Assembly: GCA_903858015.1 (NCBI GenBank)
Contig: CAIOGZ010000042.1
Coordinates: 1-64,000 of the forward strand
DNA: 64,000 bases
Direction: 5' to 3'
Source: an uncultured cyanobacterium
Lineage (GTDB): Bacteria > Cyanobacteriota > Cyanobacteriia > PCC-6307 > Cyanobiaceae
Positions 51,241 through 56,389 of this stretch are shown here, piece by piece (position 1 is the first letter of the stretch; every line of letters begins with the position of its first letter). The notes under the pieces were generated by a model. The model saw only the letters and a program-made list of their open reading frames with translations, was not told the origin of the DNA and did not search any database. The position numbers and the translations under genes were made by a program.

Positions 51241-54200
51241 TCAAACCCTCTCTTCCCTAATCAATTGTTCGAGCTGTGCTTGGAACTGAAGTTTTAGATC
51301 CTCGATACTTGTGTACTGAGTAGGGTAATGGCCAAGCTCGGAAAGTCTTTTCTTGAAGGCCAAGAGTGTGTTGATCTCCTCAGTGATACTGGCGGTGTCA
51401 ATTTGCACATTTTTGAAGTATGTGTAGACTATCGGCTTCCCCTTGGCCCTGAACTCCGCGTGGGCCGCATTAAACTCTTCTTTTGTAAACTTGCCCGTCT
51501 TTGTCTTGTAAAGGCTCAAAAAAATATCGCAGCTTCTCGCCTTTTCATTGTATTCGTCCTGCAGGCGGGTTTCGCTCATGGCGTCAAGGAAGTTCTCCCA
51601 GCGCAGGATTTGCAGCTTAATTCCCTGTTGACCCAGATTATCATTGTTCTTGCGTAGGAGGTGCAGCTCGATCGCATCGCGATCTTCCCTGAGTTCCGAA
51701 GAGGAGGCGAGGAAGACCTTGATCGTTCTGGGGGGCTGGGATTCAGAAGCCGCAGCGGCAGCGGAGGGGCGATCTTGGGCGGCAGGGGGCTCCGGAGGGG
51801 CGGGCTTGGCCCAGGCCGGCATAGCGTCTAACTTAAGTCCATCCAGGAGTTCAAGAACGCTGACATCCTCATAGCTCTCTGGGCATTCAACCGTCAGCTT
51901 GCCATCCTGCTTGCGCTTCAGGAGCCGCCCTTCTTCGTAGCGCTCCGGGGAAGTAGATAGTCGGCATTGACTGCAGATGCAAGGCACGAATTTGCGCACC
52001 TTATCTCTCAGGCCTTCGAAGCTGGCATTGAGGGCATCGAGATCGCTGGAGATCACGCTCAGCAGGGCTTTGCGCTCCGGGCCGCGAGCGCGCAGTTCAA
52101 TCTCCTTGCCGCCAGGTGAGGTGAGACGGGCCAGCAATTCGCTCTGGCCGTGCTCGAAGTAGGCCCCACTGCGCCAGGAGCGATCCGGCTGGCGCACGAA
52201 ACGATGCATGCGCACCATCAGCCGGCTGATCAAGCCTTTGGGGAGGAAGTCGTACTGATAAGTCAACACCAGATCATCCGCCTGGGGCCAATCCTGCAAG
52301 GCCTCGGGGGTGGAGGGGGAGAGCAGCTGGGGCGCCAACCAGGTTTCGATTTGTTGATCGGCAAGTTTGTAGCAGAGCTCGAATTTCTCCATCAGGGCGA
52401 GCAGTTCAGGATGCATGTCTCCGTAGGTGGAGTGCGCCCAGATCTGCTGGCAGTCTGCTCGGGTGAAGTAGCCAAAACGGGCTTTGGTGGGCTCATCGTC
52501 GAGCACGTTGAAGACAGCCTCCGTGGCCCAGTCGTTTTGGAGGATCAGAAGGCGAGCCAGGAGGGGATCCTCCTGGAAGTGGAGGAAGACGCCCAGGTCG
52601 TGGAGATAGCGGCTGAGCTGAAGAGCTTTGGTTTCATCCAAATCCAGATGGCGCCCATAGATTTGAAAATACTCCTTGCGGCTGACGTAGGGGGCTTGCT
52701 GTTTTCGATCTTCCAATTCGGCACGAATCGCCAGCCAGCGGGCTGGCACCGCCTCGCCCACGTGGGGCAATTGCTGAACGTGAAAGCGGATGGCCTCTGC
52801 CAACTTCTCAGCTGCATCGCCCTGCTCGAGGTTGCCACGGTAAACATCCTTGACGTTAGGGAAGCGCCCCTTGATTCCGGCTTCATCAATGCTTTTGCTG
52901 CGACCCGCCTTCTCGTTCTGGAAGATCAGCACCGGGCTGCCCTCGCTGAGCGCCTCAATCAGCTCCAGCCAATACTTGAAGCCGTCGTCCTGCACCGCTT
53001 GGCTGTAGCGGTTGTCGTCCACCAGGATGTAGAGGGATCGCTTGGTGAGGAAGAACTGGTGGGTGGCGTGATAAATCTGTTGGCCACCAAAGTCCCACAC
53101 GTTGAGCTGAAAGGGGCGCCCTCCGGCATTGCTAAAGGTATGGCGGTGAATATCGATGCCTTTGGTCGATTCCTCTTCTGCCGGCAAGGGTAAATCGGTT
53201 TGGTAGAGCCGGCGCAGCAGGCTGGTTTTACCGGCGCCTCCATCGCCGAGGATCAGCACCTTGGCTTCGTAAAGGTGGTCCGCTCCCTGCACATCTATTT
53301 CGCGCAGATAGTTTAGAACAGCTTCCTGGCCTTGTTGAACAATCTCCGGGGGTGGATGGATCAGCGGACAGTCGAAAACATTGATTCCATTTCTAGATCC
53401 ATGCTCTGCCCATTTTGCCTCCAGGCCTCTCTCCAGCAAGGGCCGCAACGGAGATAAGTCCTGAACCTTGGTTTCCTTCAGGTTGAGGGATATCAATCGC
53501 TTCAAGGTTGCGAAGGGCATTGTCTCAACGACAGGATTCTTTGAAAGGTCCAGGGTGGTGAGCTGGGTGAGGGCCGCCAGTGCCGCCGCTCCCTTATCAC
53601 CGATCTCGTTCCTAGTCAGGTTGAGGGAGGTGAGCTGCGTGAGTGCCGCCAGTGCCGCCGCTCCCTTATCACCGATCTGGTTGTACCCCAGGTCCAGGGC
53701 GGTGAGCTGGGTGAGTGCCGCCAGAGCCGCCGCTCCCTCAACTCCGATCTGGCTGCCCCCCAGTTCCAGTGTGGTGAGCTGGGTGAGTGCCGCCAGTGCC
53801 GCCGCTCCCTCAGCTCCGATCTGGTTGTCCCTCAAGTTGAGGGAGGTGAGCTGGGTGAGTGCCGCCAGTGCCGCCCCTCCCTCAGCTCCGATCTGGTTGT
53901 CCCTCAGGTTGAGGGAGGTGAGCTGCGTGAGTGCCGCAAGTGCCGCCGCTCCCTCAGCTCCGATCTGGTTGTCCCTCAGGTTGAGGGAGGTGAGCTGCGT
54001 GAGTGCCGCCAGTGCCGCCGCTCCCTCAGCTCCGATCTGATTGTCCCTCAGGTTGAGGGAGGTGAGGTGGGTGAGTGCCGCCAGTGCCGCCGCTCCCTTA
54101 TCACCGATCTGGTTGTACCCCAGGACCAGGGTGGTGAGCTCGGTGAGTGCCGCCAGTGCCGCCGCTCCCTCAGCTCCGATCTGGTTGTCCCACAGGTTGA

Positions 54201-55023
54201 GGGAGGTGAGCTGCGTGAGTGCCGCCAGTGCCGCCGCTCCCTCAGCTCCGATCTGGTTGTACCCCAGGTCCAGGGAGGTGAGCTCGGTGAGTGCCGCCAG
54301 AGCCGCCGCTCCCTTATCACCGATCTGGTTGTACCCCAGGTCCAGGGAGGTGAGCTCGGTGAGTGCCGCCAGAGCCGCCGCTCCCTCAGCTCCGATCTGG
54401 TTGTCCCACAGCTCCAGGGAGGTGAGCTGGGTGAGTGCCGCCAGAGCCGCCGCTCCCTCAGCACCGATCCTGTTGTCCCCCAGGTCCAGGGAGGTGAGCT
54501 GGGTGAATGCCGCCAGAGCCGCCGCTCCCTCAGCTCCGATCTGGTTGTCCCTCAGGTTGAGGGAGGTGAGCTGCGTGAGTGCCGCCAGAGCCGCCGCTCC
54601 CTCAGCTCCGATCTGGTTGCCCCTCAGGTTGAGGGAGGTGAGCTGGGTGAGTGTCGCCAGTGCCGCCGCTCCCCCAGCACCGATCTGGTTGTACCCCAGG
54701 TCCAGGGTGGTGAGCTGGGTGAGAGCCGCCAGAGCCGCCGCTCCCTCAGCACCGATCTGGTTGCCCCCCAGGTGAAGGGAGGTGAGCTGGGTCAACATCC
54801 CAAGCTGTTCCGCCAAGTCCTCCACCGGCTCCTTGAGCTGATAAATAATGGGCTTGTCTCGCAGCTGATGCGGCCATTGGCCCCCTGAGGCGGGCAGCTC
54901 AACGCCGGGGCCCAGCAGAACTAGCTCCGTGGTTCCTTGCCGTGCCAGTTCGGCGATCAAGGCATCCAGATCATCTGCCCAGAGCTGTTGCAGGCAAGGA
55001 GTGGCCGACATGGCAGAGATCAT
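51241..55023 (-). CDS. LRR-Roc-COR (ROCO) GTPase with C-terminal TIR/DUF4062-like domain
   Basis: From ATG 55023 the protein has 1260 residues. An N-terminal unique domain (1-76) is followed by 17 near-identical 24-residue leucine-rich repeats (77-484), consensus LTQLTSLNLRDNQIGAEGAA plus ALAA, and two diverged repeats. A Roc GTPase comes next: Walker A LILGDGGAGKTSLLRRLY (P-loop 593-601), switch WDFGGQQIYHATHQFFL (643-), and NEKAGRS at the NKxD position. A COR domain spans about 765-1010, with a CICSQC (1015-1020) and later VECPES that look like a zinc site. A Pro/Ala linker leads to a TIR-fold or DUF4062-like domain (about 1102-1205): IKVFLASSSELREDRDAIEL, WENFLDAMSETRLQDEY, CDIFLSLYKTKTGKFT, GKPIVYTYFK. 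The order suggests ligand sensing, a GTP switch and a C-terminal effector. ATG 55011 and TTG 55053 are alternative starts. There is no obvious operon partner. Confidence 0.9.
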   Translation of the reverse strand: MISAMSATPCLQQLWADDLDALIAELARQGTTELVLLGPGVELPASGGQWPHQLRDKPIIYQLKEPVEDLAEQLGMLTQLTSLHLGGNQIGAEGAAALAALTQLTTLDLGYNQIGAGGAAALATLTQLTSLNLRGNQIGAEGAAALAALTQLTSLNLRDNQIGAEGAAALAAFTQLTSLDLGDNRIGAEGAAALAALTQLTSLELWDNQIGAEGAAALAALTELTSLDLGYNQIGDKGAAALAALTELTSLDLGYNQIGAEGAAALAALTQLTSLNLWDNQIGAEGAAALAALTELTTLVLGYNQIGDKGAAALAALTHLTSLNLRDNQIGAEGAAALAALTQLTSLNLRDNQIGAEGAAALAALTQLTSLNLRDNQIGAEGGAALAALTQLTSLNLRDNQIGAEGAAALAALTQLTTLELGGSQIGVEGAAALAALTQLTALDLGYNQIGDKGAAALAALTQLTSLNLTRNEIGDKGAAALAALTQLTTLDLSKNPVVETMPFATLKRLISLNLKETKVQDLSPLRPLLERGLEAKWAEHGSRNGINVFDCPLIHPPPEIVQQGQEAVLNYLREIDVQGADHLYEAKVLILGDGGAGKTSLLRRLYQTDLPLPAEEESTKGIDIHRHTFSNAGGRPFQLNVWDFGGQQIYHATHQFFLTKRSLYILVDDNRYSQAVQDDGFKYWLELIEALSEGSPVLIFQNEKAGRSKSIDEAGIKGRFPNVKDVYRGNLEQGDAAEKLAEAIRFHVQQLPHVGEAVPARWLAIRAELEDRKQQAPYVSRKEYFQIYGRHLDLDETKALQLSRYLHDLGVFLHFQEDPLLARLLILQNDWATEAVFNVLDDEPTKARFGYFTRADCQQIWAHSTYGDMHPELLALMEKFELCYKLADQQIETWLAPQLLSPSTPEALQDWPQADDLVLTYQYDFLPKGLISRLMVRMHRFVRQPDRSWRSGAYFEHGQSELLARLTSPGGKEIELRARGPERKALLSVISSDLDALNASFEGLRDKVRKFVPCICSQCRLSTSPERYEEGRLLKRKQDGKLTVECPESYEDVSVLELLDGLKLDAMPAWAKPAPPEPPAAQDRPSAAAAASESQPPRTIKVFLASSSELREDRDAIELHLLRKNNDNLGQQGIKLQILRWENFLDAMSETRLQDEYNEKARSCDIFLSLYKTKTGKFTKEEFNAAHAEFRAKGKPIVYTYFKNVQIDTASITEEINTLLAFKKRLSELGHYPTQYTSIEDLKLQFQAQLEQLIREERV
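53572..54795 (-). repeat. Seventeen 72-bp LRR-encoding tandem repeats
   Basis: Seventeen consecutive 72-bp units encode 24-residue leucine-rich repeats. Many neighbours differ by only a few bases; differences cluster at the x positions of LxLxxNxI and at AEG versus DKG. The homogeneity implies recent expansion or gene conversion. The complementary strand is also free of stops over this stretch. Confidence 0.95.
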
Positions 55024-55367
55024 GTAGAGATCCGAGTGAGCAAACCGCGGCAACCCTTCAGCTCTTGCCTTGCGGCAGCGACGCGACGATCATATCCGGA
55101 TGGGCGCTCAGATGGCCTGCATTGGCTATCCAGCCCGCTTCTCCGATCCACTCCTGGTGAAGCTTATCGAAACTGGCAGCGAGGGCAGCGAGGCCATCAA
55201 GATCGCAAGCAATCCCGCTCAACGATCGCGGGCGGGCTGTTCAGCGCTGCCCCCTGATGGCGGCGGCACCCCTCGGCCTGTCCCGCCGCGATGCTGCACC
55301 TGCAGGGATATCCGATGGCATCAATTCAGTTGGCCGGTGGAATGCAAGGCCGTGCGAATAGCAACCC
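55024..55367. other. Upstream region of the ROCO gene
   Basis: About 340 bp lie between the ROCO start and the toxin-antitoxin remnant on the other strand. It should hold the ROCO promoter. Short frames here show no recognisable protein. Confidence 0.4.
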
Positions 55368-55454
55368 ATGCCCACGATCGTGGACCGGCCCGATCCGGAG
55401 CTCGCCCAGCTCGACGCCTTGTGCCTTGAGCCAGGGCTGTCGCGGGCCGAATGA
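55368..55454 (+). pseudogene. Remnant of an RHH-type antitoxin
   Basis: ATG 55368 to TGA 55454 encodes 28 residues ending in AQLDALCLEPGLSRAE, which resembles the helix region of ribbon-helix-helix antitoxins (LDxLCxxxGxSRAE). The rest of the domain is missing after a premature stop. The stop overlaps the next ATG as ATGA, the usual arrangement of an antitoxin-toxin pair. Identification is by pattern only. Confidence 0.45.
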
Positions 55455-55603
55455 AGTGGGCGCTGATGCTGCTGCTCGGCACCAATATCTTGATCGATGG
55501 GTTGCGGGACGAAGAGGATGATGGCTTCCCGACAACGCTCTCGATGCCGATATGTTCCCTCAGCACGAACTTGGCTCCAGTAATGGTGCATTCCAATACT
55601 TAA
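55451..55603 (+). pseudogene. Remnant of a PIN-domain (VapC-like) toxin
   Basis: ATG 55451 to TAA 55603 encodes 50 residues starting KWALMLLLGTNILIDGLRDE. This is the first strand and helix of a PIN nuclease (usual LLLDTNILIDxLR), with the first catalytic Asp changed to Gly. After about 20 residues the sequence loses PIN character and ends, so the nuclease cannot be active. It runs 44 bases into the 3' end of the opposite-strand phosphatase gene. Confidence 0.5.
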
Positions 55604-56165
55604 TAGCGGGGAGATCGCCGTAGTAGGAGAGGAGAGAGATCGTGGCGGTATCGAGCAGAAAATGACGGCCATGGCCAGGCGTTAGGCCGATCCAGCGGGC
55701 CGCCAGCACCCTCAGGACGTGTCCGTGGGCGAACAAGGCCACCGGCCCTCGCTGCTGCTGAGCCCGTGCGATCAGCCGATCCACCCGCGCCCCCAGCTGC
55801 TGGGGGCTCTCACCGCCCGGGCAGCCGTCCTTAAAGACCAGCCAGCCGGGCGCCTCAAGCTGAATCTCAGCGGAAGTAAGGCCTTCGTAGGCGCCGTACT
55901 CCCATTCGCGCAGGTCGGGATCGATCTGCATCTGCTCCCCCAAGCCGGCCAATTCACAGGTGCGCCTGGCCCGTTGCAGCGGGCTGCTCAGCACAAGCTC
56001 AAGGTGCAATCCTGCAAGGTAAGGCGCCAGCGATCGGGCGGCCTGCTCACCCTTCGGCGTCAACGCCATGTCCGTGCTGCCGGTGTGTTGGCCCGCGAGG
56101 CTCCAGACCGTCTCTCCATGGCGAATCAGCAACACATCTCCCGCCCCGAGGGAAAGGACCGTCAT
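55560..56165 (-). CDS. Histidine phosphatase family protein (phosphoglycerate mutase-like)
   Basis: The 201-residue protein has the branch motif LLIRHGETVWSLAGQHTGST (catalytic His in RHG), VLSSPLQRARRTCELAGLG, DLREWEYGAYEGLTSAEIQL and ALFAHGHVLRVLAARWIGL (second His). It is a phosphatase of the cofactor-dependent mutase fold, substrate unknown; WEYGxYEG is typical of plant and cyanobacterial members. Its 3' end overlaps the PIN remnant on the other strand. Confidence 0.92.
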   Translation of the reverse strand: MTVLSLGAGDVLLIRHGETVWSLAGQHTGSTDMALTPKGEQAARSLAPYLAGLHLELVLSSPLQRARRTCELAGLGEQMQIDPDLREWEYGAYEGLTSAEIQLEAPGWLVFKDGCPGGESPQQLGARVDRLIARAQQQRGPVALFAHGHVLRVLAARWIGLTPGHGRHFLLDTATISLLSYYGDLPAIKYWNAPLLEPSSC

Positions 56166-56389
56166 CGCAAAAGTCTCGGCTGGCTGGACCCCATGATGGC
56201 CACGTTGGTCCCCGTTTTAACGGCCGCTGGTGGTGGCGGGCACGGGAGCAGACAACAGCTTGCTAGGGCCTGTCGTGCAGGATGGCGGGGCTGCAGCCAT
56301 CCCCTCAGCCCCCACGCTTACTTGGGTTTAGCAACCAGCGGACGGGGGCATGGGTCAGGGTAAAGGCGGCATCGTCAGAGGCTGCACAG

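Follow-up and report, generated by a model that had tools for sequence, protein, structure and literature searches.

What are the two short, overlapping reading frames that lie upstream of a large cyanobacterial LRR-Roc-COR (Roco) gene? In the 64,000-nucleotide stretch of DNA that we analyzed (the window), the Roco gene occupies positions 51241-55053 of the minus strand and has Pfam matches to LRR, Roc, COR-A and COR-B. The frames are on the plus strand, at 55368-55454 (28 codons, MPTIVDRPDPELAQLDALCLEPGLSRAE) and 55451-55603 (50 codons, beginning MKWALMLLLGTNILIDGLRDEEDDG), and share an ATGA at 55451-55454. An earlier note on this DNA had read them as a decayed RHH-PIN toxin-antitoxin pair with a preserved ATGA overlap, facing away from the Roco gene in its upstream region. 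Both frames are present as it described, and they diverge from the Roco gene. On their other side lies a convergent histidine phosphatase (branch 1) gene (55560-56165, minus strand; Pfam His_Phos_1, E 3.4e-49), whose closest named relative, at 76%, comes from Synechococcus sp. BSA11S. Intact VapBC modules pair a PIN ribonuclease with an antitoxin whose C-terminal part holds the toxin and whose RHH dimer represses the module's own promoter. We conclude with high confidence that 55366-55514 is a non-functional remnant of such a type II toxin-antitoxin operon, of the vapBC type with an RHH antitoxin and a PIN toxin.

This identification comes from comparison with related genomes. We used 55054-55640 as the query in a DNA search of 60 genomes (the window's own and 59 others) and found matches in 18, the own genome and 17 others. 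In 15 of the 17, the matching DNA lay at 55366-55450, at 55442-55517 or at both, in most cases as two blocks separated by extra DNA, while the remaining two (G006 and G008) matched weakly at 55230-55306 only (E 4.7e-4 and 8.3e-4). The DNA just upstream of the blocks, 55229-55365, shows no similarity beyond chance to the 16 copies of the module that we extracted, as 263 of 300 shuffles aligned equally well. Complete modules in the relatives consist of a 73-residue RHH antitoxin (MRTIVDLPDPERAQLDALCRQRGLSRAEALRQALRLWL...) followed by a 119-residue PIN toxin (MLLLDTNILIDVLRGE...), colinear with the window. Three intact antitoxins matched Pfam RHH_1 over residues 5-39 or 5-40 (E 1.1e-8 to 5.3e-9) and three intact toxins matched PIN (E 6e-15 to 1.1e-16), all over the curated cut-offs. 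Translated searches found the antitoxin in 25 of 41 genomes at E<=0.001, own counted, and the toxin in 27 of 41 at E<=1e-10, some with merely ~40% identity. We aligned the window with the 16 extracted copies, 12 of which have both genes at full length; the other four (G002, G030b, G025 and G017) carry internal deletions. In the window's own genome, the relic is the only antitoxin match at E<=0.001, and no toxin of this vapBC family was found at E<=1e-10. That genome (G000, 3.84 Mb) has 32 PIN-family matches, 31 of them over the Pfam cut-off, and the relic is not listed among them.

The antitoxin relic, codons 1-28 of vapB, spans 55368-55451 on the plus strand. In the kind of translated search that the earlier note had proposed, the antitoxin of a relative (L006) found the window fragment with 76% protein identity (E 6.0e-7), and at the DNA level identity to the relatives is mostly 76-84%. 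Aligned locally to the 16 copies, 55366-55451 reaches a best score of 102, whereas none of 300 single-base shuffles exceeds 37. The toxin relic, codons 1-16 of vapC (MLLLGTNILIDGLRDE), spans 55466-55513 on the same strand and is 77-87% identical to the relatives in DNA; here the best score, for 55452-55514, is 77, and 300 shuffles reach at most 30. Its protein similarity to the L006 toxin (81% over 16 residues) is weak alone (E 0.021 in a small set), and its identity is therefore argued from DNA identity and from colinearity with the antitoxin block. It is vanishingly unlikely that these are unrelated short frames of a GC-rich intergenic region that resemble such a pair by chance. Neither fragment reaches a Pfam family alone (none at E<=10 for either), and NCBIfam offers one weak hint for the antitoxin (NF050181, E 0.15) and no family for the toxin, both as would be expected of a chance resemblance; however, matching blocks, mostly two and colinear, occur in 15 of the 17 other matching genomes, each block outscores 300 of 300 shuffles, and the translated match is strong. 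The earlier note's reading hinged on similarity of the fragments to antitoxin or PIN families, and the relatives' homologues of these blocks match both RHH_1 and PIN.

As the earlier note had also proposed, both proteins are truncated, the antitoxin to 28 of 73 codons and the toxin to 16 of 119. The antitoxin has an in-frame deletion of 123 bp (41 codons) between a Ser-Arg-Ala-Glu and the C-terminal Glu-Trp. Its junction, at 55442-55451, coincides with the one copy of a GCGGGCsGAG repeat that survives, and in the intact antitoxins of G030a and G029a the deletion edges are GCGGGCGGAG and GCGGGCCGAG, a 10-bp direct repeat with one mismatch. Of 2000 random junctions placed in the antitoxin gene of G030a, 7 had a repeat of at least 10 bp, allowing one mismatch; G035 has no such repeat at the edges of this deletion. 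Slippage or recombination between the two 10-bp copies may thus have removed the segment. Deletions between direct repeats can also be assembly collapses, and the genome is a draft of 100 contigs, so the organism might hold an intact module whose shortening is artefactual. We regard this as extremely unlikely, as the point changes, the missing upstream dyad and the lost 3' end of the toxin (all described below) are not explained by collapse at a repeat. Moreover, a 10-bp repeat is far shorter than usual read lengths.

The overlap of the two frames is not an old feature of the module. None of the 16 copies shows ATGA at this position, and the claim that the overlap had been preserved does not hold: the aligned codon pair is GAGTGG or GAATGG (Glu-Trp) in all 16 copies and GAATGA in the window, which makes the ATGA new. 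It consists of the last base of the Glu codon and a TGA that replaces the Trp codon, and by this alignment its stop is a new nonsense change adjoining the deletion junction. The ATG within it could be older than the antitoxin deletion, since GAATGG is found in G034 and G029b. What the window has kept is a different junction. Behind the new stop, the remaining 3' end of the antitoxin gene (55452-55466) still terminates at its original in-frame TGA (55464-55466), which forms part of a TGATG at 55464-55468. The same TGATG joins the two genes in 15 of the 16 copies, and G010 has TGAATG. Judged from the aligned copies, the ancestral stop/start coupling of antitoxin and toxin is this TGATG, and not the ATGA.

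The second frame is a PIN toxin only in part. Homology to the toxin covers 55466-55514. The first PIN Asp, a residue with a role in metal binding, has become Gly as the note had stated: the codon is GAC in all 16 extracted copies and GGC in the window. Nothing recognizable as toxin follows ~55514. Up to the phosphatase stop codon (55560-55562), which marks the boundary of the toxin remnant, 103 of 300 shuffles matched the toxin copies as well as 55515-55562 did, and for a longer tail (55515-55620) the figure was 181 of 300. One alignment put the sequence that starts at 55515 further along the toxin, which would imply a second deletion of 111 bp; as those 103 shuffles scored equally well, we do not claim this deletion. 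Because the phosphatase gene occupies 55560-56165 of the minus strand, the 50-codon frame ends with 44 bp (55560-55603) that run antisense to it. The locus thus holds an antitoxin fragment homologous to RHH proteins with a PIN toxin fragment directly downstream, stop and start coupled; the antitoxin has its 28 codons and a 3' stub beyond the new stop, and the toxin has 16 codons without the first Asp.

The pattern of substitutions bears on whether these fragments still serve a function. We counted differences by codon position over 132 aligned bases, where the pairwise counts are not independent of one another. The copies differ among themselves at 271, 116 and 1362 first, second and third positions, whereas comparisons of the relic with the 16 copies show 85, 136 and 193 differences. 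Columns that are invariant in the 16 copies are changed in the relic at 3 of 36 first, 8 of 38 second and 0 of 13 third positions. The excess at second positions fits a loss of constraint in the relic. The lack of change at the 13 invariant third positions, where drift predicts one or two, counts against drift, though the number is small.

The upstream region of the relic also differs from that of most copies. Eleven of the 16 copies carry a dyad at about -28/-11 from the antitoxin start (best form GATGCCGT-N9-ACGGCATC), and in the other five (G002, G020, G034, G029b and G062) the best dyad score lies elsewhere. In five single copies (G015, G021, G010, G028 and G024) the dyad clearly beats shuffles, with 0-2 of 200 as good; in the other single copies it does not (11 to 187 of 200). 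It is the position shared between copies that makes the dyad notable. The dyad is probably the autoregulatory operator of the intact modules. In some of the copies at L005-L021, at about -28 to -3, the shared dyad overlaps a TATGAT hexamer. Upstream of the relic the usual dyad is absent, the best score there being 5 of 8 and not at the usual place; a lone 7-base GGCATCA, like a half-dyad, lies at 55317, ~50 bp upstream and outside the usual place. No promoter was found in a scan of 55000-56300, a result that says little because shuffles averaged 0.2. An Rfam scan of 54900-56300 gave no matches at E<=1.

These observations allow us to weigh the idea that the locus still functions as two mini-genes, whose products would be a shortened antitoxin and a PIN peptide without catalytic activity, coupled in translation through the new ATGA. 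In favor of it, the frames, both open, overlap, the antitoxin deletion keeps the reading frame, and none of the 13 invariant third positions has changed. However, the antitoxin frame stops inside the RHH domain, the relic departs from the copies at 11 of the 74 first and second codon positions where these are invariant, the usual dyad is missing, and the second frame ends antisense to the phosphatase gene. The overlap itself carries little weight: counting this one, both strands of the window hold 22 pairs of frames at least this long that overlap by ATGA (12 and 10), some of which look like real gene pairs judged by length. We therefore consider functional mini-genes very unlikely. As a non-functional remnant, the locus would make no active antitoxin, toxin or autorepressor and would drift neutrally.

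We also looked for an intact module at the same site. We searched 38 loci by tblastn with the G030a (L006) antitoxin and toxin; these were 30 of 33 phosphatase loci (own included), 4 of 11 Roco loci and 4 regions. The phosphatase-locus flanks were at most 1.5 kb, several of them ended by contig ends, and G029:C5 had only 1001 bases. Among these loci, no match at E<0.1 appeared apart from the relic in the window. Of three further loci, L155 to L157, the search covered two: L155 from Synechococcus sp. BSA11S gave antitoxin noise alone (12-18 residues, with E values from 0.05 upward), and in L157 neither antitoxin nor toxin matched. G001 has a Roco orthologue (81% over the C-terminal 729 residues) with a 5' flank that is shared with the window up to ~55207 at 75% DNA identity, and no module lies within the 4.3 kb compared at that locus. 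The relatives searched thus offered no intact module at this site for the comparison that the earlier note had proposed. We infer that the module arrived at the window site and decayed there later; the order of the decay events is likewise something that we infer.

The Roco gene and its flank have features of their own. The protein has 1270 residues from a listed TTG start, with numerous near-identical LRR units and the Roc-COR part, and its C-terminus has a weak DUF4062 match (E 0.0017) under the cut-off. For its last 729 residues, no more than 5 of 41 genomes, own counted, have matches at E<=1e-20. No gene and no Rfam match were recognized in its 5' flank, 55054-55228, which is conserved with contig G001:C47 as far as 55207; 55098-55228 (131 bp) is an 83% match to a contig end in G010.

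Internal deletions are also found in four sibling copies, and these are the only point of wider interest. There are five such deletions, of 63-175 bp: G017 (L008) has lost 96 bp of the antitoxin and 142 bp of the toxin, and the toxins of G002 (L009), G030b (L021 in G030) and G025 (L013) have lost 96, 63 and 175 bp, the G025 antitoxin also carrying a 12-bp insertion. This tally covers the extracted copies; further partial matches occur in G001, G004, G013, G019, G032, G063 and others. The repeats at the deletion edges are 14, 13, 9, 7 and 6 bp with at most one mismatch, and the two shortest may be chance, since the random-junction control covered the window deletion only. With the window's 123 bp included, 4 of the 6 deletions of at least 63 bp are in frame (123, 96, 96 and 63 bp) and those of 142 and 175 bp are not; six deletions are too few for claiming selection on frame.

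The antitoxin gene contains in-frame direct repeats, codons for RAE...RAE and QALR...QALR, and this raises a doubtful proposal: the family may be prone to self-erasure, with such repeats allowing loss of the toxin-binding half in one step, as the window (123 bp) and G017 (96 bp) would have done. G017 is a draft genome of 64% completeness, and its antitoxin breakpoints differ from those of the window. If the proposal were true, losing the antitoxin in one step should be lethal unless the toxin had died first, and copies of this kind could show which gene dies first.

The remnant in the window is real but of an ordinary kind, a pseudogene that counts as genome debris, and by itself it alters nothing in our understanding of how toxin-antitoxin systems work. 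It shows cleanly how a dead module can escape family models and yet be recognized by comparison with close relatives; any tally of toxin-antitoxin turnover that relies on gene calls or family models would overlook remnants of this sort.

PMC2701414 (Biol Direct 2009) discusses toxin-antitoxin genes that are dead or solo, and in it an exchange with a reviewer who raised dead systems drew the authors' reply that truncations are harder to detect. The window holds a truncated module, a sort that this reviewer expected to be common, and unlike the solo genes of that discussion, neither of its genes survives as a solo. The sibling copies with deletions belong to the same vapBC family; by inspection of the alignment they retain more of the module, and among the 17 copies the one in the window has eroded furthest. 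Relative to intact VapBC modules with an RHH antitoxin (e.g. L005, L006 and L020), the window lacks the upstream dyad, 41 codons of the antitoxin and, in the toxin, the first PIN Asp and ~100 codons. It shares with them the order of RHH then PIN, the TGATG junction and, in both kept blocks, a DNA identity of mostly 76-87%.
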